Below, in pieces: positions 1 through 19,485 of a DNA stretch of 31,909 nucleotides. The DNA lies in IMG/VR virus record IMGVR_UViG_3300045974_000145, positions 1 through 31,909 of that record, one strand, 5' to 3'. Within the stretch, counting starts at the first letter, position 1. Each line of letters starts with the position of its first letter. Origin of the DNA: a virus. Made by a program: the position numbers and the translations under genes. The notes under the pieces were generated by a model. That model had not been told where the DNA came from and did no database searches. It saw nothing but the letters and a program-made list of their open reading frames with translations.

Positions 1-2558
1 TCTCTAAATTCCTTTAACGCCTTATCCATGGCCCAAGCTCGAAGTTTTTCTTGGCTAAGGTTTGCTTTGTTTGCTGGAATATCAAACTTTAGAACGTTTA
101 CTTGAGGTGGAATTGGCGTTCTAGATTGAAGCTGAGTAGTTACATCTATAGCCTCTTGCTTCAGTGTTCCCTTTTGATAAAGGGCCTCGCCTGAGGTCTG
201 AAGGAACGGCTCGCTTTTTTGGAAATCAGCGTCATAACCACTGTTCTTATAAAGATCAGACACAATCTGCGCGTGACGCGGAGTAACGTCTTTTCCCGCC
301 AGGACGTTTTCGATTGCTTTAAGTGTTTCATCTTTTGTGAAGCCCTTATCCCTGAAGTACTCGGGGAATGAAGATGTTGAAGGAATGAGTTTCCCGTCAT
401 TGGTTAAGGCTTGCTGATCCGCGGGAATGAACCCTCCCGAGGTATGCTCGCCATGGGAGATCTCATCTTTGATTCTTAGGATAACGTCTTTCTTGTAGGG
501 GATTGCCTGTATGTTTGCAGCTTGCTTTTCATTGTAAATTTTTGGAACATTATTTTCATGCCATTGCTCTGGTGTCATTTGTTGCAATGGTCCAGTGATT
601 AGGGCAAGGGAACCCCAAAGTTTCGAGGTAGTATCGACTTGCTGTTTCCATTGCTTTTGAGTGAAACTCTCAGGTCTTGCTTTGATTGCTTTTGCTCGGT
701 AATCGTTTTCAATCTGTTCTCGAATTGGAGCGAGCTCTTTATCTTTGGCGACCGCTTCGTCTGCCTGCTTTTGGACGTCTTCGAATCCTTTTTGTCTTTG
801 CGCTTCATTTGCTTTGTGCTCATTTACGGATAGTTTGGCAGGATCAAATTTAATGTCATTGGCAAGCCCGTTGTAATGCTCGGTTCCCACAACCTTAGAG
901 GTCCAAACGGATAGGGGAATCTTTATGTCAAGGCCCGTTGACTTTGCCTCAGCAAACTGCTTTTCAATGCCAAGCTCTTTAACCGCTGCGTTTGAGTCAA
1001 TGCCCTTTGATTGGAAGTAGGTCTCTGCCGCCTCGGGTGAGATGTAAATGTTTTCAACCGGAGTGCCCTTAGTGATCTCTGCGACCATGCCCTTGAATTT
1101 CTCAGGGAGTCTTTCTCTCAGTTTTGATTGGCCTGCCTTTTCACCTAGGGCCTCATAGACTTGTTTGGCCTGGTTTGATTGCTGAATCTGCCGGGCCGAA
1201 ATGGCTACATGAGCCCCGCCGCCAGCCACACCCATTAACATCACAGATTGAGCGGTGGGGGATAGAACGCCCGTTGCATCCCCTAAGATTTTGCCAACCG
1301 TCTTAGTTTCAAACTCGCCGCCCGAGAGAGATTTAGCGACCTCTCCAAAACCCCCAGTCCCAACCTCTTGAACGTATTCAGTGGGAAGCTCTGAAACCTG
1401 GGCTAGGATCATTCCCTTAGCCGCTTGCTTAACTGCTTTTCCAAGCGTTAGACCCTCAAAAAGCTTAGGGTTTGAGATGATATAGGACCCAAGTTTTTCA
1501 GCGCCAGGGATGCCAGTCTTCTTTAAAACCTTCATGGCCCCGCCTACTGCAAGAGATCCTGCACCTTTTGCAAGTGGAGCTCCGGCCTTAGCCAGGATAA
1601 AATCACTCCCAGTCTCAAGAGCGGCGTTAATCATCCCGACCGTATGGGCTGCATCGGCTGCAATGCCCTGATCAATTGGATTGCCTGCCTTATCTTTGAG
1701 TGCAGAGTATTCTTTAAAAGCGCCGCCGCCTTCCATTTGATAGGCCTGTGCTGCCAAGCCGCTCAAGCTCCCCCAGAATAGACCCTTCTTTGCGCCGGCA
1801 AGCGCACCGGGTGCCGCTCCGACTCCGCCTGCCAGAGATCCAATTGCGGCGCCCGCTACTGCTCCGATAGCCGTTCCCGCCGCACCAGTAGGTCCGGCAG
1901 GACCCATCATTTCATCCCAATTCTCGCCTGCGCCAACCCTGAGGATTGCTCGAGACATATTCGGGATTTGTTGTGCCGCCTGATAGAGGGGATGAAAGTG
2001 GGCGTTACCGCTTGCGTCTTTCTCTCTCGCCTCGATTGCCTCGTATGGTTTTAATTCCTCTTCTAGCTTAGCGAGTTCGGACGTATACTTTGTGGAAGCC
2101 TTGCGGGTCCTGCGACTCTCACTCAATCGAGCGGACCATAGTTCTGCATCTCGCCCCCGTAGGTTTCCGGTAACGATTCCCGAGGATGCTTGTTTGATGT
2201 ACTTTTCAAATGCTCCCATGTTGTCGAAATCATCTTTGGCAACGGGAATGACTTCGGGATTCTTTAATAGGTATTGTGTTGATCCGGGATTCTTTTTCTC
2301 AAAGTCATCCCAGTATTGAGATGAGGGGGCGTTTGCAACCTTCTCAGCCATGGGTAGGTTCTTATCAATCATGGCAGGCGTCTGATTGAGTCTCTGCGAA
2401 TAGTCTATGACCTTTGCAGCGTGAACAGGGTCAACCTCAAGAGTCTGCCGGTAGGCCTTTTCAAGTTCACTCACCCGATCAGGGAATATGCTTGGGTCTA
2501 TTGCACCCGTCTTTTCGTTTGGCTGATCAGGAAATAAAGAGGTATCAATCTCGATCAT
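1..2558 (-). CDS. Large polyvalent ejection/internal virion protein, C-terminus beyond left edge
   Basis: An open frame runs without a stop from an ATG at 2558 to the left edge, giving at least 852 residues. The ATG overlaps the TGA of the upstream gene (ATGA). About residues 190-225 are Gly/Ala-rich and could cross or insert into a membrane. A later stretch with the pattern 'KGTPVENIYISPEAAETYF', then 'GLDIKIPLSVW' and 'LSVNEHKANE', resembles the recurring segments of large phage polyvalent proteins. As the last and largest gene after the nozzle, gp13-, gp14- and gp15-like genes, it occupies the place of T7 gp16 (internal core/ejection). I infer injection into the host with the DNA. Enzymatic domains may lie in the missing C-terminus. 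Confidence 0.8.
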   Translation of the reverse strand, partial: MIEIDTSLFPDQPNEKTGAIDPSIFPDRVSELEKAYRQTLEVDPVHAAKVIDYSQRLNQTPAMIDKNLPMAEKVANAPSSQYWDDFEKKNPGSTQYLLKNPEVIPVAKDDFDNMGAFEKYIKQASSGIVTGNLRGRDAELWSARLSESRRTRKASTKYTSELAKLEEELKPYEAIEAREKDASGNAHFHPLYQAAQQIPNMSRAILRVGAGENWDEMMGPAGPTGAAGTAIGAVAGAAIGSLAGGVGAAPGALAGAKKGLFWGSLSGLAAQAYQMEGGGAFKEYSALKDKAGNPIDQGIAADAAHTVGMINAALETGSDFILAKAGAPLAKGAGSLAVGGAMKVLKKTGIPGAEKLGSYIISNPKLFEGLTLGKAVKQAAKGMILAQVSELPTEYVQEVGTGGFGEVAKSLSGGEFETKTVGKILGDATGVLSPTAQSVMLMGVAGGGAHVAISARQIQQSNQAKQVYEALGEKAGQSKLRERLPEKFKGMVAEITKGTPVENIYISPEAAETYFQSKGIDSNAAVKELGIEKQFAEAKSTGLDIKIPLSVWTSKVVGTEHYNGLANDIKFDPAKLSVNEHKANEAQRQKGFEDVQKQADEAVAKDKELAPIREQIENDYRAKAIKARPESFTQKQWKQQVDTTSKLWGSLALITGPLQQMTPEQWHENNVPKIYNEKQAANIQAIPYKKDVILRIKDEISHGEHTSGGFIPADQQALTNDGKLIPSTSSFPEYFRDKGFTKDETLKAIENVLAGKDVTPRHAQIVSDLYKNSGYDADFQKSEPFLQTSGEALYQKGTLKQEAIDVTTQLQSRTPIPPQVNVLKFDIPANKANLSQEKLRAWAMDKALKEFR

Positions 2559-4360
2559 TTAGACCCCGTCTTTGTTGCGTATGTTTCAAGATATTTCTTA
2601 ATGTTGGCAGTGGTAGCAGGGAGTCCTGACGCCTTGAGTTCTTTAATGGCTTGGTTTACTTTACCGCCAGGCTTTAAAGAGTCAGCGCCGAAATCATTTA
2701 TGTAGGTATTGACGTCTTCAATTCCAAAGGACCCCTTTGATCTCTGAGATGCTTGCCCAATTGCCTGAACGGTATCGCGTCCGAAGTCATTCTCAAGAGT
2801 TCCCCATGCGGCATTCTTTGCGTCACGTTTGGCTAGTTCAACCTGATAGTTTTCCTTACCGCCAAAGAGTCCGAAGAACCATTTGGTTGAAGGGTCCTTC
2901 TCTCTAAGGTCGATAGCCTTCTTATAAAGTTCTTCACCGGAGATGCCTGGGTTTTCCTTCTCGAGTTCTTTAACTGTGTAGAGGTATTTTGCACGGTCAA
3001 CAGGCTCTTTGTAGATTTCTTTCGCATCGATCTCAATCCTATCCCAGGTTTGTTTAAGATTTCCCTCGCCCTTATAGGCAAGCTTAGAGAGTTCCATGAA
3101 GTCTGATCCGGTCACTCTCCCCTTTGTATAGGCCTGATACATCTCAGGAGCACCGGCCTGACCATTTCTTACCGCGGTCCATAGGGCCATATAGGTAACA
3201 GGATCGGTCTTTCCTTCGGCTTGAGCGTAGAGTTTTTTAATGATTTCTTCTTTTTGACCGACGTCCCAAGCTCCTTGGCCAAACTTCTGCGCTTGGGGAA
3301 GGGCCTGAGAAAGGGTGACTCCCTTTTTCTTTCCGTCATAAATTGTGTTCATGAAAGAGTAGTCAACGGCGTTGTCTCTTGCTTTCTTAATCTGATTTTG
3401 TTCGCCTGCTTGGGCTTGAATGTAGCTTTTAAACTTTTCTTTTCTCTCGGTTGGGATGCTCATTTGATCTACAAACGTGTTCATCTTACCCAGATCTGAT
3501 GTACCATCCGGCAGCCTATAGTTCTTAACTTGACCCCAAACTCCATTTTGCTCATCCCAAATTTCTTTACCCTTAATTGTCTCATCGAGTTTGGCTGCTT
3601 CGGTTGGAGCTATGAACTTCTTTGTTGCCTCGAGAATGGTCCTGGCTTGCTGAGGACTCTTTTCTAAAATCGCATTGACTGAGTTCTTAATCATTTCAGA
3701 AGTCACGGCTTGAACTCCGAACGTTATTGTTTTCTCATCCTTTCCGCCCTTTCTCAGTGCGTTGGCAAGAGACCCTGCCGTAGTTTCCATTCTAGAAATC
3801 AGCGCGTTTGGATCTGATATTCCTGCGGCAGCAAGAACTTGGGTTTTTGTGTTTGAATCAATTGTTTGGTTATAGGCGTCATCAAGCTGAGATGCCTCAT
3901 GCTTTGATACCTCATCACGGAAAGTCAGTCTCTGATTCTCCATGAGCACTCCGAGCTTTGCTTTGACTCTTTCCGGGGCTATCTCGAGGTATTTCTGTTC
4001 AAGTCCTTTGACCTTTGCCTCATATTCTTCAAAGGTTCCCTGGGCGTTGCTGAGTTTACGATACATGATACCAGAAGGATTTTTGTTCTTATCAAGATCC
4101 TTAGACCATAAAAGATTTTGATGCTCCTCGGTGAATTTCTGAGTCAGGTTTTGCGTCTCGGCCTCATCATTGCGCTCTTGCATTTGTATGCCGTATGCGG
4201 CTAGTTTCTCGCCAATACCCGAAACGGCTGCGCCAATCTTCTCGCCAGCCCGAGAGATGTTTTCTCCGTATGCTCCTTCAACCGGAGCTAATGGCCTAAT
4301 AGATTGAGGCATCACTGGATTAACTTTAACTTGCTGCTCATATACTGGGATTTTAGGCAT
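2555..4360 (-). CDS. Internal virion / DNA-ejection protein (gp15-like position)
   Basis: 601 residues, strongly charged and predicted mostly helical, with long Lys/Glu/Gln-rich heptad-like stretches and no signal peptide. The N-terminus (about residues 1-60) is Pro/Ala/Gly-rich, followed by 'AAYGIQMQERNDEAETQNL', which looks like a coiled-coil start. It lies between the gp14-like gene and the giant ejection protein and is coupled to the latter by an ATGA overlap. Size and position match the medium-sized core/ejection protein of T7- and epsilon15-like podophages. The function is inferred mainly from gene order and helical composition, as I see no catalytic motif. Confidence 0.72.
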   Translation of the reverse strand: MPKIPVYEQQVKVNPVMPQSIRPLAPVEGAYGENISRAGEKIGAAVSGIGEKLAAYGIQMQERNDEAETQNLTQKFTEEHQNLLWSKDLDKNKNPSGIMYRKLSNAQGTFEEYEAKVKGLEQKYLEIAPERVKAKLGVLMENQRLTFRDEVSKHEASQLDDAYNQTIDSNTKTQVLAAAGISDPNALISRMETTAGSLANALRKGGKDEKTITFGVQAVTSEMIKNSVNAILEKSPQQARTILEATKKFIAPTEAAKLDETIKGKEIWDEQNGVWGQVKNYRLPDGTSDLGKMNTFVDQMSIPTERKEKFKSYIQAQAGEQNQIKKARDNAVDYSFMNTIYDGKKKGVTLSQALPQAQKFGQGAWDVGQKEEIIKKLYAQAEGKTDPVTYMALWTAVRNGQAGAPEMYQAYTKGRVTGSDFMELSKLAYKGEGNLKQTWDRIEIDAKEIYKEPVDRAKYLYTVKELEKENPGISGEELYKKAIDLREKDPSTKWFFGLFGGKENYQVELAKRDAKNAAWGTLENDFGRDTVQAIGQASQRSKGSFGIEDVNTYINDFGADSLKPGGKVNQAIKELKASGLPATTANIKKYLETYATKTGSK

Positions 4361-4372
4361 TATTTTTTACCC

Positions 4373-4924
4373 CTATTTTTTCCAAAAGTTGGCTGCGCCC
4401 ATTCCTACTGATCCCGCCCCACCGAGTAGGGAAGCAAACCCGCCCATTCTACCGGCGGTTTCTGCGTTATATCCTGCAGTCCTTTGTTGTTTGGCTCGCT
4501 CTCTTAGCTGCCATTCCTCGATCTGGGCCTGATTATTTGATTCCCATGTGCGCATATCTGCGTTGTATCTAATGGCTGCCTCATCCATTGCGGCCTTATT
4601 GGCTGTATCTTTTGCAATGTCTTGCGCAGTGACTGAACTTCCGGTGATTCCGTTAGCAGCCATTCCTGCTTTTTGAGCGCCCTCAAATCTTGCTACTTGA
4701 TCCTTAAGGTCTTTCGTTTCTCTTGCTCCCTGGTCTTGAGAGATGCTGGCTGCACGTTGGCCTTGCTCGAGAGCTAGGGCTGCGCTTTTCTCATCGTTAG
4801 CAGCCATGTCTTCATACATTCGGCGCTGAGCTTCTCCGCCCTCTTTTTGCCCCATGTAACTCATAATTCCGCCGCCGGCTGCCATCCCTAGCCCAACCGT
4901 TGCCAGTGTTACTGGTTCGCACAT
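4373..4924 (-). CDS. T7 gp14-like internal virion protein
   Basis: 183 residues. The N-terminus 'MCEPVTLATVGLGMAAGGG' (Met-Cys followed by a short hydrophobic Gly/Ala segment) is typical of gp14-type podophage proteins. It is followed by an Ala/Gln/Glu-rich helical body (about residues 35-150) and a Gly-rich hydrophobic end 'GGFASLLGGAGSVGMGAANF'. In T7, gp14 leaves the capsid first and inserts in the outer membrane as part of the ejection channel. A good Shine-Dalgarno, AGGAGG, precedes the ATG by 4 bases and lies inside the upstream gene, which overlaps by 16 bases. Confidence 0.8.
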   Translation of the reverse strand: MCEPVTLATVGLGMAAGGGIMSYMGQKEGGEAQRRMYEDMAANDEKSAALALEQGQRAASISQDQGARETKDLKDQVARFEGAQKAGMAANGITGSSVTAQDIAKDTANKAAMDEAAIRYNADMRTWESNNQAQIEEWQLRERAKQQRTAGYNAETAGRMGGFASLLGGAGSVGMGAANFWKK

Positions 4925-5406
4925 AGATCCTCCTTATCAATCACAAACATTTGAAAGGGTTTTTGTTCCACTCCAAAGGGCCTCTCATCATAGAAGAATG
5001 CGCCTAACCACTTTAACCACTCAATTGAGCGAACGTGTCTTGCGTCTACAAAATTAAAAACCGCATCGTATGATTCGAGTAGAAACCCAAGTGCTTTGAG
5101 CGAAGCCTTTGCAAAAGCAATCTTAGATGAGTCGATCTTATCCGACCCAAGTAGCCATCCCGATCCAATGCGAGGGCCCACTACTGAGGGACTCACTCCA
5201 AACATGGCAATCACTTCACCGGATAACTCAACTGTGAAGCAATGAGATGCACTCACGTAGCCAGCAAGTAGGGCTTGCTCACCAGTATGCCCATGGGATG
5301 CTTTAACCTCATCAAGGTCAAGCTGCCTGAGCTTAGGAGAAAGATCACAAATGTCTTGTAACCTTGCGGGCCTTATCCTAAAATTCCCCTTCTCGTACGT
5401 AAACAT
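4909..5406 (-). CDS. T7 gp13-like (GNAT-fold) virion assembly protein
   Basis: 165 residues with an acetyltransferase-like pattern: 'FRIRPARLQDICDLSPKLRQ' at the start, a central strand pair around 'HCFTVELSGEVIAMFGVSP', and a C-terminal segment on position in a chain of substitutions ('RSIEWLKWLGAFF') that matches GNAT motif B. Phage T7 gp13 and its relatives share this fold but are thought to act in virion assembly rather than as acetyltransferases. The gene starts at the last base of the nozzle gene's stop region and overlaps the gp14-like gene, as expected for this module. The phage gp13 reading is preferred over a metabolic acetyltransferase because of gene order. Confidence 0.75.
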   Translation of the reverse strand: MFTYEKGNFRIRPARLQDICDLSPKLRQLDLDEVKASHGHTGEQALLAGYVSASHCFTVELSGEVIAMFGVSPSVVGPRIGSGWLLGSDKIDSSKIAFAKASLKALGFLLESYDAVFNFVDARHVRSIEWLKWLGAFFYDERPFGVEQKPFQMFVIDKEDLCANQ

Positions 5407-13518: not shown

Positions 13519-14964
13519 CTATGCAAGTGGATCGTAATCTTTACGGGAAAACTGAAGAGGTTTATTGGAACCCTTCTTTTGAACAGGGAACGCGAAAGTC
13601 AGGCACAGAGCGTCTGCGCGGTTAGGGGAGCTCATCCCACGCTTGCGCATGTCCTCCTTTGCCTCGAGTTGTATCTTACCGTTAAGCTTAACAATGTACT
13701 CAGGTCCCGTTAACTCCTCAGCCAGGATTGGGTCATCGGGAATCATCCCACCCTCAGCCATCCATTTCTTCATTTGGCCCCACATCTGGGCGCGCTTATT
13801 GAGGTATCCCGGATCATTACTCTCTGCAGCAAAAGGAACTATCTGCCAGTGCCGTCCCATTTGCCGGCCGGCAGAGACCACGCCGGTTCCATAGCCCATA
13901 TCAACAAACACGGCGTCCGCTTTGTATTCGTCCTCATATTGAGCCACGTAGCCCGCGAGCGTGAAATCATCCTGAATCTTTCGGTAGGTCGCAAGCTGCT
14001 TCGAGACTAGTCCCTGCCTCATATAGATTACGCACTCATCATCCCCATAGATTGCAGGGTCAACCCCAATCACAACGGGAGCGAACGCATAGGCACTCTC
14101 ATGGAGGACCTTCTTTCTCGCGTCATTCACAATGCTCGAGGGAATGAACTGTCTGTCTGAAGTATTTGGGAACTCTCCCTTAACCCTAACCCTGACAAAG
14201 TCAGAGTCATCCCCGTAGTCAGTAATCCATTTTTGAAGCTGATCTTTATTAGTCATCCGGGCAGTACGGGAATCAACCTGCCTAGTTAGCCATCGGTGCT
14301 TCAACCTTCCAAAGCATTCTCTGAATCGCCCGGTGTTACGAGTGGGGTTGCCAAACGCTAGCCATAGGATCTCGGTATCCTTATCGGTGAGAGCTCCCTC
14401 AGATACTTCCCAAATCTTATCTGCAATGGCTGAGGCCTCATCGAATACGAGAAGAATGCGCTTGCCCTGGTTATGCAATCCTGCAAACGCTTCAGTGTTT
14501 GAGTCACTCCATGGGATTGCATCGATGCGCCAGGTCTTCTCATGCGCTGGCTCTGCCGAGTATATGGCTGTAGCCGTAAGCTTGAACATGTGCTTCCCAA
14601 TGAAGCGCTGAAACCAACGCGATACCTCGGGCCAAGTCTTAGTGCGAAGCTGGGTCTCGGTGTTAGCGGTGACTACACCCTTAGTGTCTGCCTGAGTTGA
14701 GATGGCCCATAGAATGATCCATGAGACCATTGCACTTTTACCAACCCCGTGACCCGAGGCAATTGCCGCCTGGATAACTTCATTCGCAGTCATGAGCCCA
14801 TCTCTTAATTGTTTTAAGAGATCCGCCTGCCAGTCATCCGGGCCCGGGAATCCTTTAAGTTCGCCCTCTCCCCATGGAAATGAGAATAGAACAAACTCAT
14901 AAGGGTCTTTTGATAGGGAGTCTAATTGCTCTATAAGGTCTTGCTCGAGCTCATCCTTTTGCAT
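13519..14964 (-). CDS. terL: Terminase large subunit
   Basis: 481 residues from the ATG at 14964; an in-frame TTG at 15021 and ATG at 14988 would lengthen it but lie deeper in the small-subunit gene. Walker A GHGVGKS at 71-77, Walker B LLVFDE at 171-176, a coupling segment 'AFGNPTRNTGRF' at 203-214, and nuclease acidic residues D302 (GVDPAIYGDD), D355 (FVDMG) and D451 (PNRADAL). It packages DNA into the prohead using ATP and cuts it. It overlaps the small subunit by 14 bases. Its closest relatives are likely the headful-type or epsilon15-like terminases, but the packaging mode cannot be decided from the sequence alone. Confidence 0.93.
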   Translation of the reverse strand: MQKDELEQDLIEQLDSLSKDPYEFVLFSFPWGEGELKGFPGPDDWQADLLKQLRDGLMTANEVIQAAIASGHGVGKSAMVSWIILWAISTQADTKGVVTANTETQLRTKTWPEVSRWFQRFIGKHMFKLTATAIYSAEPAHEKTWRIDAIPWSDSNTEAFAGLHNQGKRILLVFDEASAIADKIWEVSEGALTDKDTEILWLAFGNPTRNTGRFRECFGRLKHRWLTRQVDSRTARMTNKDQLQKWITDYGDDSDFVRVRVKGEFPNTSDRQFIPSSIVNDARKKVLHESAYAFAPVVIGVDPAIYGDDECVIYMRQGLVSKQLATYRKIQDDFTLAGYVAQYEDEYKADAVFVDMGYGTGVVSAGRQMGRHWQIVPFAAESNDPGYLNKRAQMWGQMKKWMAEGGMIPDDPILAEELTGPEYIVKLNGKIQLEAKEDMRKRGMSSPNRADALCLTFAFPVQKKGSNKPLQFSRKDYDPLA

Positions 14965-15436
14965 TGGCACGACGGGCCTTAGCGGCATTGAGCCGATCAG
15001 CAAAGGATTGATCGAAGCCAACTTCGACTCTATCGGTGAAGAGTTTAAGATACCGCCCTAGTAATTCGTGCGATTTATTGGCGCCCGCGGCATCAAACTC
15101 CCAGACTCCCAGTCCGGTATCTGGGTCGGTCTTCTGAACCATGCTCTTTGATTCGTGATCAAATTCCATTACCGGGTTTCGCTGCATACATCTTTCAGCG
15201 ATTTCCTTGAGGCCCCTAATAACGTATTCAGCGGTCACCATAGACCGCTCCTCAAGTTTCTCAACTTTCTTATCAACGGCGGCCCGCACCATAACTTTTG
15301 ATAACAGTCTGGAGGCCTGCTCCTGCGCTGTATCTGCAGAGTATCCGGCACGAATTGCTGCCTGAGTTCCATTTCGGTCTTTGAGGTATTCGGCTATGAA
15401 AAGCTTTTGTTGATCAGTGAGTTTGCGTTCAGCCAT
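14951..15436 (-). CDS. terS: Terminase small subunit
   Basis: 161 residues from the ATG at 15436. 'LTDQQKLFIAEYLKDRNGTQ' followed by 'AAIRAGYSADTAQEQASRLL' is the N-terminal HTH of the Terminase_2 family, and a helical C-terminal part ends in 'AKARRANAKG'. It recognises phage DNA for packaging. Longer reading to 15496 is possible but gives a non-family N-terminus; the Met at 15436 fits the alignment of the HTH. The only Shine-Dalgarno candidate, AAGG, lies 9 bases upstream inside one arm of an inverted repeat. Confidence 0.88.
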   Translation of the reverse strand: MAERKLTDQQKLFIAEYLKDRNGTQAAIRAGYSADTAQEQASRLLSKVMVRAAVDKKVEKLEERSMVTAEYVIRGLKEIAERCMQRNPVMEFDHESKSMVQKTDPDTGLGVWEFDAAGANKSHELLGRYLKLFTDRVEVGFDQSFADRLNAAKARRANAKG

Positions 15437-15438
15437 AT

Positions 15439-15477
15439 CTGTTAACCTTATCGCACATTCTGAGATAATGTTAACAG
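15439..15477 (-). promoter_or_regulatory. 14-bp-armed inverted repeat at terS start (operator or RNA hairpin)
   Basis: Arms at 15439-15452 and 15464-15477 pair in 13 of 14 positions around an 11-base loop. On the late mRNA the arm nearest the gene contains the AAGG that is the only Shine-Dalgarno candidate for terS, so folding would hide it. The arms begin with CTGTTAAC, and GTTAACA also occurs four times in the attP arms. As DNA the site overlaps the -10 of the candidate late promoter, so an operator is the alternative reading. Confidence 0.65.
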
Positions 15478-15496
15478 TTAGGATTTGTAAAGGCAA
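15468..15496 (-). promoter_or_regulatory. Candidate late promoter
   Basis: On the minus strand TTGCCT (15491-15496), a 17-base spacer and TAACAT (15468-15473) resemble a sigma70 promoter with 4 of 6 matches in each box. The expected start would fall within the inverted repeat before terS. Both boxes are imperfect, which would suit a late promoter that needs an activator. Confidence 0.4.
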
Positions 15497-15518
15497 ATGA
15501 TTTAGCGCATGGCGTCTA

Positions 15519-15554
15519 TTTTATGCATAAGCATACGACCCATATTGCATAAAA
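15519..15554. repeat. 9-bp perfect inverted repeat between terS and exported-protein gene
   Basis: TTTTATGCA at 15519-15527 and TGCATAAAA at 15546-15554 are perfect inverted arms around 18 bases. A second small dyad, TATGC-ATAA-GCATA, overlaps the left arm. It lies downstream of the exported-protein gene (which ends at 15569) and upstream of the late operon, so it could be a regulator site for the late genes or part of a weak terminator for the upstream gene. Confidence 0.5.
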
Positions 15555-15568
15555 GGTTTTAAGTTAGG

Positions 15569-15826
15569 CTATCTTGTTCTGTTTCCATAGGGATTGCCGT
15601 AGCTATTATTGGACCCACCTTGCTCGGTCCCGCTGCGGCCGGTGTATGGATTCGTGTTTCCCTGGGTGCTGTAGTTATTGTCTCGGGTTGAATCAGGGGC
15701 GCTCCTATGATGGGGCTCAACGTAGGTCCCGTTTGAACGGGTATACCCCCTGACATAGACGTCCTCCGCAAAGGCATTCATTGAAGACACGAGGACCGCG
15801 AATAAAACGATATAGACAGCTTTCAT
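15569..15826 (-). CDS. Small exported protein, probable lysogenic-conversion (moron) gene
   Basis: 85 residues with an evident signal peptide ('MKAVYIVLFAVLVSSMNAFA', cleavage after AFA at residue 20), so the mature protein is about 65 residues. The mature part carries 'VRGYTRSNGTYVEPHHRS' and 'NPYTGRSGT', a motif I know from small periplasmic or surface proteins in many bacteria and phages. It is Asn/Gly/Ser/Tyr-rich with no Cys. It sits next to another exported gene in the lysogeny region, separate from the structural operon. Role unknown; altering the host envelope is an inference. GGAG precedes the ATG. Confidence 0.75.
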   Translation of the reverse strand: MKAVYIVLFAVLVSSMNAFAEDVYVRGYTRSNGTYVEPHHRSAPDSTRDNNYSTQGNTNPYTGRSGTEQGGSNNSYGNPYGNRTR

Positions 15827-15841
15827 ATTTCTCCTATTAGT

Positions 15842-16252
15842 TCATTGTTTCGTCATTAAGACATAAGATCCAGAGCAATCCTTGCTAACCTCGAGGTCAG
15901 ATCCGACTGACCTAAAACACCAGAAAGAAACCGAATGAGAGGATTGATCCGTTGCCCTTATGCGCCCGTCAGGATGGGACTCGGTTGAATAGTTTAGTGT
16001 ATAGACGATTGAGATGTAGGTGTCCCACCCGTTAAAAGTCGTATTCTGATAGGAGTAAACAGTCTCGAGGTCTGACTTGATCTCGATCTTTTCCCACTGA
16101 ACACCGACCGATGTCCCGTAATAGACCGCATAGGTATTTCCAATTAAGGCGGTTAGGGGTGAGACTGCGGCCGTTGACGCTGTTATGGGGTCCGGTGCTT
16201 TCCCGCATCCTAAAGAGACTAACATAAGTAAGGCAATTATTCCTGACTTCAT
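15842..16252 (-). CDS. Probable exported lipoprotein, moron-type
   Basis: 136 residues. The N-terminus 'MKSGIIALLMLVSLGCGKAP' has a positively charged start, a hydrophobic core and a Cys at residue 16. The box is V12-S13-L14-G15-C16, with Ser rather than Leu at -3, so lipid attachment is plausible but not certain. The rest is beta-rich with Tyr/Thr/Ser repeats and a Cys pair (residues about 113 and 126) that could form a disulphide. No family recognised. The ATG lies 6 bases after a -10 box, so the transcript is probably leaderless and no Shine-Dalgarno is present. Confidence 0.72.
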   Translation of the reverse strand: MKSGIIALLMLVSLGCGKAPDPITASTAAVSPLTALIGNTYAVYYGTSVGVQWEKIEIKSDLETVYSYQNTTFNGWDTYISIVYTLNYSTESHPDGRIRATDQSSHSVSFWCFRSVGSDLEVSKDCSGSYVLMTKQ

Positions 16253-16287
16253 AGATCAAGTATTACCCTAAGTAGAGTAATTTGCAA
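16253..16287 (-). promoter_or_regulatory. Promoter of the lipoprotein gene (twin of the Cro promoter)
   Basis: On the minus strand TTGCAA (16282-16287), 17-base spacer, AATACT (16259-16264), then 6 bases and the ATG. It shares CTTGCAAATT, TCTACTTA and ATACTTG in the same order with the promoter at 17202-17237, with one 1-base gap. Confidence 0.7.
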
Positions 16288-16328
16288 GCCCTAAATTTCC
16301 CTACTAGGGGCGTGGGGTTGAGAGGGAA

Positions 16329-16520
16329 CTAATCCTTAATGAGGTCGCGGATTCGAAGACCGAGTGCTCTAGACCATACGGCTAGGGTGGAGAGCTTTGG
16401 GTCATAGCCAGGTCTGAAATATCTGAATACGCTGTAATACTCAACCCCCAGTTTTTTTGCGAATTGGCGCTTAGAAATGCCCTTTTTTTTGAGAATAGCC
16501 GAAAGTATCAGTTTCACCAT
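16329..16520 (-). CDS. Small Cro/XRE-type HTH regulator
   Basis: 63 residues. 'LKKKGISKRQFAKKLGVEYY' plus 'SVFRYFRPGYDPKLSTLAVW' forms a Cro/C1-type HTH over about residues 10-50, leaving no room for another domain. An AGGA immediately precedes the ATG; the GTG at the second codon would give a more usual spacing. A TTGACT-17-GATAAT promoter lies about 84 bases upstream and its -35 sits in a palindrome. With the CI-like and Cro-like genes it gives this short region three HTH regulators, so it may control lysis-lysogeny timing or the moron genes beyond it. Confidence 0.75.
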   Translation of the reverse strand: MVKLILSAILKKKGISKRQFAKKLGVEYYSVFRYFRPGYDPKLSTLAVWSRALGLRIRDLIKD

Positions 16521-16558
16521 TCCTGATAGTGTACAAAACTCTATTCAAATCTGGCAGC

Positions 16559-16574
16559 CTGCAAATTTTTGCAG
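16559..16574. promoter_or_regulatory. 16-bp palindrome upstream of the small HTH gene
   Basis: CTGCAAATTTTTGCAG consists of perfect 7-base arms around two bases, a size and symmetry typical of a dimeric HTH operator. It lies in the leader between the -10 box (16604-16609) and the start codon (16520), so it could be an operator or a hairpin in the leader. Confidence 0.55.
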
Positions 16575-16603
16575 TGGGTTTCCAAATCCTTGGCAAACCA
16601 TTA

Positions 16604-16644
16604 ATTATCTCACCCTTGACGCACATAGTCAAACTGGGTAGGCT
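16604..16644. promoter_or_regulatory. Divergent promoters sharing a TTGAC palindrome
   Basis: Minus strand: TTGACT (16627-16632), 17 bases, GATAAT (16604-16609), a good sigma70 promoter for the HTH gene. Plus strand: TTGACG (16616-16621), 17 bases, TAGGCT (16639-16644), which is weak at -10. The two -35 boxes are the halves of TTGAC-N7-GTCAA (16616-16632), so one bound protein would block both. Confidence 0.58.
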
Positions 16645-16711
16645 GTAACTATCGGGGGTACGTTAGATGAAACACGAGCAATACAGGCAGAAGCTTGATC
16701 GGGAAATTAGA

Positions 16712-17176
16712 TCACTTATAAACCGGACCTTGTTTCTTAGGCGGAAGCTCGCCCGACTCAAGCCCACCCGGATCAAGTTCGGGGGCGTAGTCAAGCGCAA
16801 GATAAACAACCTCAAGGTATTTGCTGGAATGGGTGGGGTTTTTTTTGAGCGCCTTCACGAACTCACACACCGCTTTGATTTCTTCCTTTGATAAGGAGGG
16901 GAGTACGGTAATCGTCTGAAGGAGTTCTGCGTTTAAATCCTGGTCGTCTTTCCTTTTAAGGGATTCAACGTTTTCAGGTTTAAGGAGTTCCCACGCTGTA
17001 GTTCCCAGTCCCTCAGCCAGCTTATCTATAAGGTCTAAGGATGGGACTGTTTTACCCGTGACATATCTCTCTAGTGAGCCCCTGGGTATGCCTTTCTTAA
17101 CGAGTTCGGCCCTGCCGCCTCGCCGGCTTGCGATCTCCGCAAACTTTTTTAATAGCACTTCCCTAGAGTTAGCCAT
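16712..17176 (-). CDS. CI-type repressor without protease domain
   Basis: 154 residues. An XRE-type HTH occupies about residues 8-60: 'LLKKFAEIASRRGGRAELVK', 'KGIPRGSLERYVTGKTVPSL' and 'DLIDKLAEGLGTTAWELLKP'. The rest is helical and polar ('LSKEEIKAVCEFVKALKKN'), with no S24 Ser/Lys protease residues, so induction would not follow LexA-type self-cleavage. It is divergent from the Cro-like gene across 61 bases with operator-like dyads, the classic switch layout. Its own promoter boxes are unclear; TATAGG lies 5 bases before the ATG, so its transcript may also be nearly leaderless. Confidence 0.82.
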   Translation of the reverse strand: MANSREVLLKKFAEIASRRGGRAELVKKGIPRGSLERYVTGKTVPSLDLIDKLAEGLGTTAWELLKPENVESLKRKDDQDLNAELLQTITVLPSLSKEEIKAVCEFVKALKKNPTHSSKYLEVVYLALDYAPELDPGGLESGELPPKKQGPVYK

Positions 17177-17178
17177 AT

Positions 17179-17237
17179 AGTCCTATACAGTCACATTTCA
17201 CTTGCAAATTGTATCTACTTAAGTCTATACTTGGGAC
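17179..17237. promoter_or_regulatory. Switch operator region and Cro promoter
   Basis: Plus-strand promoter TTGCAA (17202-17207), 18-base spacer, TATACT (17226-17231), then 6 bases and the ATG at 17238. A 20-bp dyad GTATCTACTT / AAGTCTATAC (17211-17230, arms matching in 8 of 10) covers the spacer and -10. A related half-site AGTCCTATAC lies at 17179-17188, just before the repressor start. These are good candidates for repressor and Cro binding. Confidence 0.7.
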
Positions 17238-17441
17238 ATGAACGACGGCAAAGAGTACAAAGCTTGGATGCTGAAAGAGGGAATCAAGGAGGTTGATGTT
17301 GCCCACTACACCCGCCTATCGGTCAAAACCATTCATTGGTTTTTGATCGGCAAGCCGGTTGGAGAAGCAACAAAAGCTAACTTGCTCCACTTCTATCAGT
17401 CATGGCCCACCCTGCGGGCAAGAGACCGCCTGGTGGGTTGA
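17238..17441 (+). CDS. Cro-like HTH protein
   Basis: 67 residues. 'KEYKAWMLKEGIKEVDVAHY' then 'TRLSVKTIHWFLIGKPVGEA' gives a compact helix-turn-helix without any other domain. As the first gene of the rightward early operon, divergent from the CI-type repressor, it fits the Cro role: binding the operators between the genes and preventing lysogenic control. The start codon coincides with the predicted first base of the mRNA (leaderless); GGGA lies only one base before the ATG and cannot serve as a normal Shine-Dalgarno. Confidence 0.75.
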   Translation: MNDGKEYKAWMLKEGIKEVDVAHYTRLSVKTIHWFLIGKPVGEATKANLLHFYQSWPTLRARDRLVG

Positions 17442-17504
17442 GTTTATCACTAAGTCTTTAATTTGAAAAGTGCTTTGGTTCATACGGGATATAGGAGATG
17501 TACG

Positions 17505-17801
17505 GTGTGTAAGGTATACGAACTCATTAAGGAATCTTCAAGATCAATTGTTCGACTAAACTTGGACGCAGATACTGCACAAGACCTGACTGAACTCCTA
17601 ACTAAGGCCCGATCCCGAAACCTAGAAGACATTCAAGACCTAATCTTTCAGCAAGCTACCGGCGCCATCTCTGACGTTGAGGCCGGCTACCGCCTGCGCT
17701 GCCTTATTGAGATTGAGGATGGGCGCTTGCTCCGAAATCGCGCTTCCGAAACCCGGGAGGTTGGAACTTTCGAACGCAAGAATCTTAGAGAGGAAGGGTA
17801 A
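17505..17801 (+). CDS. Early-operon hypothetical protein
   Basis: 98 residues from a GTG at 17505, chosen because AGGAGA lies 6 bases upstream; a longer reading from TTG at 17463 lacks a comparable site. Predicted helical and charged ('DADTAQDLTELLTKARSRNL', 'EDIQDLIFQQATGAISDVEA'), no membrane segment, one Cys in the first residues. Not recognised. Its place right after the Cro-like gene suggests an early regulatory or host-takeover role, which is only inference. Confidence 0.6.
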   Translation: MCKVYELIKESSRSIVRLNLDADTAQDLTELLTKARSRNLEDIQDLIFQQATGAISDVEAGYRLRCLIEIEDGRLLRNRASETREVGTFERKNLREEG

Positions 17802-17805
17802 CACT

Positions 17806-18027
17806 ATGCCTTATTCAGTAAAGCCTGAAACACTAGATGCCTATTTAAGAGTGGTCTTTCACCTGAGGTCCCATTTCTACAGGGGGAGAGCGGCCCTTCT
17901 CGCTGAACTGGATAAAAGGCGCAAAGAGCTTCACGACGAACTACTCGCCCAAGCTGGCGTGAACCGAGAGAACTTCGAATTTATTTGTTGGATCAATGAT
18001 CTCCTCGATGCTCAGGAGGCGGCGTGA
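17806..18027 (+). CDS. Early-operon hypothetical protein
   Basis: 73 residues from ATG 17806, preceded by a GGAAGGG ribosome site. Helical and charged: 'MPYSVKPETLDAYLRVVFHL', 'RGRAALLAELDKRRKELHDE' and 'FEFICWINDLLDAQEAA'. A longer frame upstream (from 17677) overlaps the previous gene and is not supported by a ribosome site. No family recognised. Overlaps the next gene by 4 bases (GTGA). Confidence 0.62.
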   Translation: MPYSVKPETLDAYLRVVFHLRSHFYRGRAALLAELDKRRKELHDELLAQAGVNRENFEFICWINDLLDAQEAA

Positions 18028-18221
18028 CAACTAAAAAATTAAAAAATGGTGCAATCGTTTTAAAAGAACGCGGTCGATTTGTTCTCTGCAAAACCGACTC
18101 ATTCCAGCCGTATGTTACGTGGGAGATTAATAAAGATGGCGCAACATTTACGGGCCATTACTTTGAAACACGAGAAGACGCTGAAGATGATTTCAGAACA
18201 CGAATAGGACGGGATGAATGA
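18024..18221 (+). CDS. Early-operon hypothetical protein
   Basis: 65 residues starting at a GTG that overlaps the previous stop (GTGA). A small alternating beta pattern ('GAIVLKERGRFVLCKTD', 'YVTWEINKDGATFTGHYFET') followed by an acidic helix ('REDAEDDFRTRIG'). No recognised family. It overlaps the start of the first membrane micro-protein by 4 bases, so translation is probably coupled. Confidence 0.58.
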   Translation: MTTKKLKNGAIVLKERGRFVLCKTDSFQPYVTWEINKDGATFTGHYFETREDAEDDFRTRIGRDE

Positions 18222-18289
18222 CCGACCTTATCCTAACCGCCACCGGCATTTTAATTCTATTAGTCGTAATTCTACGGAGACTCGCATGA
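18218..18289 (+). CDS. 23-residue membrane micro-protein
   Basis: A complete frame of 23 residues reads 'MTDLILTATGILILLVVILR' and ends R-L-A. It is one hydrophobic segment of about 17 residues with a positive C-terminal end, as in single-span membrane peptides. The ATG overlaps the previous stop and its own stop overlaps the next ATG, so it sits in a run of coupled genes rather than being a random frame. Function unknown; comparable phage peptides act on host membrane proteins or lysis, but nothing here proves that. Confidence 0.5.
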   Translation: MTDLILTATGILILLVVILRRLA

Positions 18290-18372
18290 CAACCATTGAA
18301 TCATTTTTCATCTCGATAGCCGCCGCCCTCACCATGTCGGTCCTTTCAATCATAATTGGAATTTGGACGTGA
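18286..18372 (+). CDS. 28-residue membrane micro-protein
   Basis: A complete frame of 28 residues: 'MTTIESFFISIAAALTMSVL' continues into 'SIIIGIWT'. Nearly all of it is hydrophobic, a single membrane span. It overlaps the 23-residue gene before it (ATGA) and the GTG of the gene after it. Two micro-proteins in a row with the same architecture support coding. Function unknown. Confidence 0.48.
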   Translation: MTTIESFFISIAAALTMSVLSIIIGIWT

Positions 18373-18629
18373 GTAAACACATGCGAAGGCCTTGGGGATT
18401 TAGCTTTAATGACGTAGCGGTCGACGAAAAGACTGATAACCCCGGGGTTTTACTTGCGATCAACTGCGTAAAGCGCCGCATACATGGGGAGGACGTCCCA
18501 CCCATGACAATTACAACCAAGACAAACCCCGAAACCAAAGAACAAAAAGAATGTCGCTTAACCCGAGAAGATGCGGACGCCGATTTCGCAAGGATGCACG
18601 CCGCGTATGAAAGGAACTCAGAGCGATGA
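18369..18629 (+). CDS. Early-operon hypothetical protein
   Basis: 86 residues from a GTG at 18369 that overlaps the preceding TGA. Mixed composition: 'WGFSFNDVAVDEKTDNPG', 'LLAINCVKRRIHGEDVPPM' and an acidic tail 'TREDADADFARMHAAYER'. No family recognised and no signal or membrane segment. The acidic 'DADADF' helix resembles the end of the 65-residue protein at 18024-18221 ('REDAEDDF'), so they may share a short domain. Overlaps the following small frame by 4 bases. Confidence 0.55.
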   Translation: MSKHMRRPWGFSFNDVAVDEKTDNPGVLLAINCVKRRIHGEDVPPMTITTKTNPETKEQKECRLTREDADADFARMHAAYERNSER

Positions 18630-18757
18630 GTATCTTAAACAAGTTTCTTCTAAGAATAGAAGGAAACAGAGAGAACCTCGAGGCGAGTATAACAGTTAGT
18701 GGGGCTCGCCTTGAGGTCTCTCGCGGACTTAGAAGTTATCCGAACAAAAGGAGTTAA
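18626..18757 (+). CDS. 43-residue possible small protein upstream of the ERF gene
   Basis: The frame reads 'MSILNKFLLRIEGNRENLEA' and continues basic and polar to 'SYPNKRS'. It begins with an ATGA overlap with the preceding gene, in keeping with the other genes here, and ends 2 bases before the ERF start codon. Its middle is occupied by a long RNA-type stem-loop, so it may instead be a structured leader. Its codons also carry the ERF ribosome site (AAAAGGAG before 18760). Confidence 0.4.
   Translation: MSILNKFLLRIEGNRENLEASITVSGARLEVSRGLRSYPNKRS
18669..18722 (+). promoter_or_regulatory. Long stem-loop just before the ERF gene
   Basis: Arms at 18669-18687 and 18705-18722 pair through about 17 base pairs with one bulged and one mismatched base, around a 17-base loop. 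The sequence ends about 38 bases before the ERF start. There is no T-run, so it is not an intrinsic terminator; a control element for ERF translation or a processing site is possible. Confidence 0.5.
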
Positions 18758-18759
18758 TT

Positions 18760-19485
18760 ATGAAAGAGCTAGCTATTGCTTTATCCAAGGCCCAGGCTGA
18801 ATTCACTAACCCTGAACTCGACTGCCAAAATAAACACCTAAATTACTGGTATGCGTCACTCGGTGCAACAATCGCAGCAATTAGGCCCGCCCTTAATAAG
18901 CACGGATTATTTTTAACTCAAACCGTTTCCGATAAAAACATAATCACTAAGATCATCCATACTTCTGGGGAAACGCTCGAAGGAATAACGCCGCTCTTTA
19001 TTGATAAGCTGACAATGCAGGGTCTTGGGTCTGCCATGACCTATGCTCGCCGATATGGAATTAGCGCGCTACTGGGTATTGTCGCTGACAGTGATGACGA
19101 TGGATTAGCTGCAAACAGAAATTCTGATAACGACAATAATTCTAATCAGAAAAAAGTTGTCTTCACCTCTATGGGCGCATCTCCAACTAGTAAACCAAAG
19201 CAAACACTCGGCATTCACCCGGAACAACCCACGAAAGGTGACGGAATGCCCCCCCAGGATGGAACTTATAGAATCAACTTTGGCAAGTGGAAGGGGACTA
19301 AGGTTTCCGATCACCACAAAGACGAGCTCATTAGTTATGTCGAATATATTGAATCTTCGTCGGCGCGAGACAATAAAGACGTTTCGCCAAACGGAAAGAC
19401 CTTCATTGCTGAGGTCACGAAGTATCTTGCCAGTCTTGAAAACGCGCCGTTCAATGACGACGCAAATGGGGATGATAAACTTTAA
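18760..19485 (+). CDS. erf: ERF-family single-strand annealing protein with extra C-terminal domain
   Basis: 241 residues. ERF core at about 1-125: 'KELAIALSKAQAEFTNPELD', 'LNYWYASLGATIAAIRPALN', 'MQGLGSAMTYARRYGISALL' and 'GIVADSDDDG'. A polar Asn/Asp linker follows, then a C-terminal part (about 170-235) with 'YRINFGKWKGTKVSDHHKDE', which recalls the small C-terminal domain of exonuclease-X-like proteins. ERF anneals single strands for recombination and genome circularisation. AAAAGGAG lies 8 bases upstream of the ATG. Confidence 0.85.
   Translation: MKELAIALSKAQAEFTNPELDCQNKHLNYWYASLGATIAAIRPALNKHGLFLTQTVSDKNIITKIIHTSGETLEGITPLFIDKLTMQGLGSAMTYARRYGISALLGIVADSDDDGLAANRNSDNDNNSNQKKVVFTSMGASPTSKPKQTLGIHPEQPTKGDGMPPQDGTYRINFGKWKGTKVSDHHKDELISYVEYIESSSARDNKDVSPNGKTFIAEVTKYLASLENAPFNDDANGDDKL

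Follow-up and report, generated by a model that had tools for sequence, protein, structure and literature searches.

The gene for a probable surface lipoprotein in a temperate phage is preceded by a promoter closely resembling that of the Cro-like gene of the same phage, and the explanation we prefer is that both may be lytic promoters that one immunity regulator controls, most likely the probable prophage repressor CI154, the secreted proteins then being made together with Cro at the onset of lytic growth. We hold this reading with evenly balanced confidence. Its interest lies in tying a probable surface lipoprotein to the lysis–lysogeny switch, which would predict the time at which the protein is synthesised and its possible role.

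Phage type and immunity block

The stretch analysed (the window) is a virus record of 31,909 bases, probably a fragment. Its portal is 44% identical to those of SPN1S and epsilon15, and because genes for an integrase and an Erf recombinase are also present, the phage is classed from its sequence as a temperate epsilon15-like podovirus; it differs from the known members of this group (Uetakevirus) in that a search of the phage collection recovered neither its immunity proteins nor its lipoprotein. Elusimicrobia portal matches of 43–50% identity were rejected as host evidence, the window contains no tRNA that might offer a route to the host, and an Rfam scan gave no match.

Leftward on the minus strand, the block runs from CI154 (17176–16712) through HTH63 (16520–16329) and the probable lipoprotein gene (16252–15842) to a gene for an 85-residue exported protein (15826–15569), beyond which lie the terminase and other virion genes. 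Rightward, on the plus strand, Cro67 (17238–17441) is followed by early genes. The twin promoters point outward and bracket the CI154 and HTH63 repressor genes. CI154 resembles HTH_3 just below the Pfam cut-off, matched no peptidase domain and has no relatives in IMG/VR or GTDB. HTH63 is a Cro/CI-type regulator of 63 residues, with counterparts in two other phages at 62–63% identity. Cro67 is named Cro-like by its position, its small size and a low-confidence, all-helical five-helix model that is too poor for use; it has no match in Pfam (the HTH_3/Cro family included), PHROG or PDB, Foldseek returned none, and no relatives were found in IMG/VR. On the plus strand a reading frame of 74 residues (16667–16891) opens with its ATG at position 16667 and runs antisense over the 3' end of CI154; it may be due to chance.

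The predicted lipoprotein has 136 residues and a signal peptide ending in LVSLG before the cysteine. Its lipobox (SLGC, residues 13–16) agrees with the looser PROSITE-type pattern. The strict motif [LVI][ASTVI][GAS]C (as in PMC11893012) is not matched, and the protein is therefore labelled only a probable lipoprotein. No relatives appeared in IMG/VR or, up to an E value of 5, in the phage collection, nor any Pfam or PHROG family, and a single-sequence fold was beta-rich but too poor for use (pLDDT 44). The 85-residue exported protein (PHROG 29674) has its own AGGAG, and its gene, 15 bp after that of the lipoprotein, is probably in one operon with it. Farther left, directly before the ATG of the small terminase, a 20-base inverted repeat (85%; 15436–15480) yields an RNA stem that includes the AAGG Shine-Dalgarno sequence (z −2.3), and could be a translational control, operator or packaging-site element.

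Twin promoters and predicted leaderless starts

The predicted lipoprotein promoter (16253–16288, minus strand), identified from the sequence, by alignment to its twin and by a scan for leaderless distance, comprises a −35 TTGCAA (16282–16287), a spacer of 17 bases, a −10 AATACT (16259–16264) and six bases to the ATG; the region reads CTTGCAAATT-ACTCTACTTAGGGTAATACTTGATCT and then ATG at 16252. The Cro-like promoter (17201–17237, plus strand), identified from the sequence, by a consensus scan (9/12) and by the same leaderless-distance scan, comprises TTGCAA (17202–17207), a spacer of 18 bases, TATACT (17226–17231) and again six bases, reading CTTGCAAATTGTATCTACTTAAGTCTATACTTGGGAC and then ATG at 17238. 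A sequence-only reading of this DNA had described CTTGCAAATT, TCTACTTA and ATACTTG in one order with a one-base indel, at an equal distance of six bases from −10 to ATG, and this description is borne out at both start regions. With AATACT against TATACT, the lipoprotein −10 is the weaker as judged by its letters. Both CTTGCAAATT and TCTACTTA occur exactly twice in the window, each time at the twins; ATACTTG is commoner, with five sites. The exact twin pattern was sought in IMG/VR and found nowhere. Two further elements lie close by: an inverted repeat, AGTAGaGtAATTT...AAATTtCcCTACT (16271–16305), upstream of and over the lipoprotein −35 and without a counterpart at the Cro-like promoter, and CCTGCAAATTTTTGCAG (16558–16574), a third copy of CTTGCAAATT with one mismatch that lies upstream of HTH63 and holds a 16-bp palindrome.

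Neither gene is preceded by a Shine-Dalgarno sequence, while most other genes in the window carry recognisable ones. With a −10 that ends six bases before the ATG, transcription is expected to begin at the ATG itself, and this distance together with the missing Shine-Dalgarno makes leaderless mRNAs probable for both genes. Among 45 starts in the window, a sigma-70-like promoter at leaderless distance and without a Shine-Dalgarno sequence was found at three only, namely the lipoprotein, Cro-like and HTH63 genes, all within the immunity block (hypergeometric 0.00028). The same layout is seen in relatives, at the cro of phage L093 and at both CI and HTH63 of phage L096, and in lambda cI is leaderless as well. 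Two recognised marks of leaderless genes are a TANNNT-type (TA-like) −10 some 12 bp ahead of the start codon and a missing Shine-Dalgarno sequence (PMC3160421). The Cro-like TATACT at six bases and the HTH63 TACACT at seven, neither with a Shine-Dalgarno sequence, both fit this type, whereas the lipoprotein AATACT departs from it at the first T. The six-base distance as a sign of leaderless transcription, like the recurrent slot for secreted proteins described below, goes beyond what the earlier reading had contained.

Likeness beyond chance and possible host promoter preference

The local alignment of the twins (score 18) was the best among 990 pairs of gene-start regions, and no shuffle out of 20,000 that preserved dinucleotides reached this score for the twin pair alone; anchored at the start codon, the two match in 26 of 39 bases, a value that 400 shuffles of the full set of 990 pairs never reached, the largest being 25. 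One could nevertheless suppose that the likeness is mainly that of two good host-type promoters sharing one leaderless layout, the sigma factor favouring TTGCAA and a −10 six bases before the ATG, with the remainder a coincidence and no common regulator. When the whole set of start regions was shuffled, the same score did appear in one of 60 cases, and the cro of L093, a phage otherwise different, is preceded by TTGCAA-17-TATATT-7-ATG, that of L096 by TTGCGG. The sequence TTGCAAAT is also found at the −35 of the L093 cro, so part of the likeness may reflect host promoter preference. The spacer is harder to explain in this way, since TCTACTTA lies where sigma factors hardly read (P ~0.0005 for the shared 8-mer alone), and a dyad is present in both spacers (P ~0.0001 by shuffling). 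Furthermore, of the 20 TTGCAA places in the window, only one beyond the twins (2338, minus strand) is followed by a correctly spaced −10-like ATACT. With the −35 and −10 hexamers held fixed, shuffling still gave P ~0.0013, and on this value and that of the spacer 8-mer the twins are judged to go beyond a pair of ordinary promoters, if not by an overwhelming margin. We consider this explanation by host preference unlikely; it is nonetheless, with the accessory-gene reading discussed below, one of the two main rivals to shared regulation.

Candidate operators and possible shared repression

The whole window holds 18 gapless 20-bp dyads in which 8 or more of the 10 positions pair, and of these the immunity region (16200–17300) contains only two, one per twin promoter, both lying over TCTACTTA. 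These candidate operators, ATTACCCTAAGTAGAGTAAT (16262–16281) and GTATCTACTTAAGTCTATAC (17211–17230), pair at 8 of 10 positions each and cover spacer and −10 of the lipoprotein and Cro-like promoters, respectively. They would suit a dimeric repressor, and a common operator at both sites is a candidate only: relative to the shared TCTACTTA the dyad centres are 2 bp apart, and the half-sites differ (ATTACYCTAM vs GTATMKACTT). An alternative candidate that stays in register is the direct repeat TACTTA-N6-TACTTG with 12-bp spacing, whose only two occurrences in the window are at the twins (16257–16274, minus strand, and 17216–17233, plus strand). A search for tandem operators found one dyad per promoter and no repeated set, either at the promoters or in the cro–CI interval.

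Candidate regulators of the twins are the three proteins CI154, HTH63 and Cro67. The suggestion in the earlier reading that the lipoprotein answers to the same repressor as the lytic switch, or was equipped with a copied promoter, is supported only in part, unlike its description of the motifs: the likeness beyond chance with hexamers fixed, the sole two dyads of the region and the lambda-like outward layout speak for it, while the register of the dyads and the presence of TTGCAAAT at the cro of the unrelated L093 speak against. Given the 2-bp shift in dyad register, and with host preference a possible source of the TTGCAA part, we grade shared repression as plausible and not higher. In the gap between CI154 and HTH63 there is, in addition, a promoter-like TTGACT-17-GATAAT (10/12; 16604–16632, minus strand) that overlaps TTGAC-N7-GTCAA, so HTH63 may have a further promoter and an operator here.

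Under the preferred reading of shared control, the block would form a lambda-like immunity switch, in which the leftward CI154 and HTH63 genes lie between two outward lytic promoters. The PR-like one would serve the Cro-like gene and, to its right, the early genes; the PL-like one would serve the genes for the lipoprotein and the exported peptide on the left, from where transcription may run on into terminase and further late genes. In the prophage one immunity regulator, most likely CI154, would sit on both spacers and shut both promoters, and upon the flip to lytic growth the secreted proteins would appear together with Cro. In lambda, outward PL and PR likewise bracket the repressor block, accessory genes may lie between the repressor and PL, the operators are triple 17-bp sites and PL leads to the N antiterminator. 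The window differs in that no triple 17-bp operators were recognised, the left promoter is followed by genes for secreted proteins and, after them, terminase, and a second small HTH regulator lies between the promoters. A parallel to the control of a second promoter is the immB region of N15 and PY54. In N15 the repressor binds not only operators located between cB and cro but also two OL sites at another gene's promoter outside the cI–cro interval, and in PY54 both cI and cro are leaderless (PMC4488713); OL of N15, however, controls repA and not a secreted protein, and the proteins of these phages have no detectable relation to those of the window.

As to function, the lipoprotein of phage T5 (Llp) is an early product of infection that blocks its receptor (PMC9586334), and lipoproteins of the mEp-immI phages serve superinfection exclusion (PMC11893012). 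The window protein, probably a small phage lipoprotein as T5 Llp and the Cor/Lpp exclusion proteins are, has no sequence match to them, and its gene lies beside a repressor whereas that of T5 lies by tail or receptor-binding genes and those of mEp phages within a structural gene cluster. By this analogy, surface modification against superinfection would be a reasonable function, and with less assurance we envisage that the protein would act as T5 Llp does, changing the cell surface early in infection.

Relatives, the secreted-protein slot and remaining alternatives

The two HTH63 relatives in IMG/VR phages, in L093 (63% identity) and L096 (62%), share the gene order cro | CI, HTH63, secreted protein, with an integrase near the block in both. 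Their secreted proteins are unrelated between phages, L093 encoding an outer-membrane-barrel-like protein (Pfam OMP_b-brl, just under the cut-off) and L096 a short probable lipoprotein. L093, the relative checked for a related portal, has none, and its CI shows no significant similarity to CI154. Since secreted proteins also adjoin the regulators in these phages and in a block of phage L091, the slot appears from gene order to be recurrent and its cargo exchangeable. The L091 block (2327–5291) is another immunity-like one rich in secreted proteins, where two small HTH genes are interspersed with genes for exported proteins, one barrel-like, one a lipoprotein and one related to the 85-residue protein. 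L092, where a long protein has an exp85-like C-terminus, was set aside with no matching block. No twin promoter was found before the secreted-protein genes of L093 and L096, that of L093 being preceded by an SD-like GAGG, so that the twin wiring has so far been seen only in the window phage. Relatives sharing TerL or portal included none with immunity-region homologs, and no homologous locus fit for phylogenetic footprinting was found.

This recurrent slot bears on the second main rival, by which the lipoprotein gene would be a moron, an accessory gene of lysogeny, occupying a lambda rexAB-type slot; the prophage would express it either through a promoter of its own or through transcripts reading on from CI and HTH63. 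The lipoprotein gene is downstream of the repressor genes and codirectional with them, as are the secreted-protein genes right after HTH63 in L093 and L096, a search of 14900–19000 revealed nothing terminator-like on the minus strand, and in lambdoid prophages morons are known to occupy the interval from repressor to N (PMC7067206). On the other hand, the gene has a predicted promoter of its own that resembles the lytic cro promoter and not that of CI, although transcription in both states could still hold, and we regard the accessory-gene reading as rather improbable. Duplication of a promoter cassette in evolution to equip an acquired gene, the copies no longer under one regulator, is very doubtful, for the some 33 bp of similarity with one indel, and slot proteins as unrelated between phages as acquired genes would be, are offset by a similarity that ends at the functional promoter limits without the flanking match a copied segment might leave, and by alternating conserved and diverged bases that fit selection at least as well.

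Returning to shared lytic control, a wider and distinctly tentative proposal, unlikely in full, is a family of temperate phages with a leaderless immunity cassette (cro | CI, HTH63) and an exchangeable slot for secreted proteins, which in the window phage the PL-like twin promoter, a match of that before cro, would couple to the lytic switch, with the cell surface remodelled at lytic commitment. HTH63 is in any case a recurrent regulator with an adjoining cargo slot, and thus a place to seek surface-modifying phage genes. Its own control may be visible in L096, where a CTATCATAATTGATAG palindrome and two more TGATAGG copies stand directly before HTH63 (4949–5001), likely an autoregulatory operator; in the window, CTATCAGGA stands directly before the HTH63 ATG.
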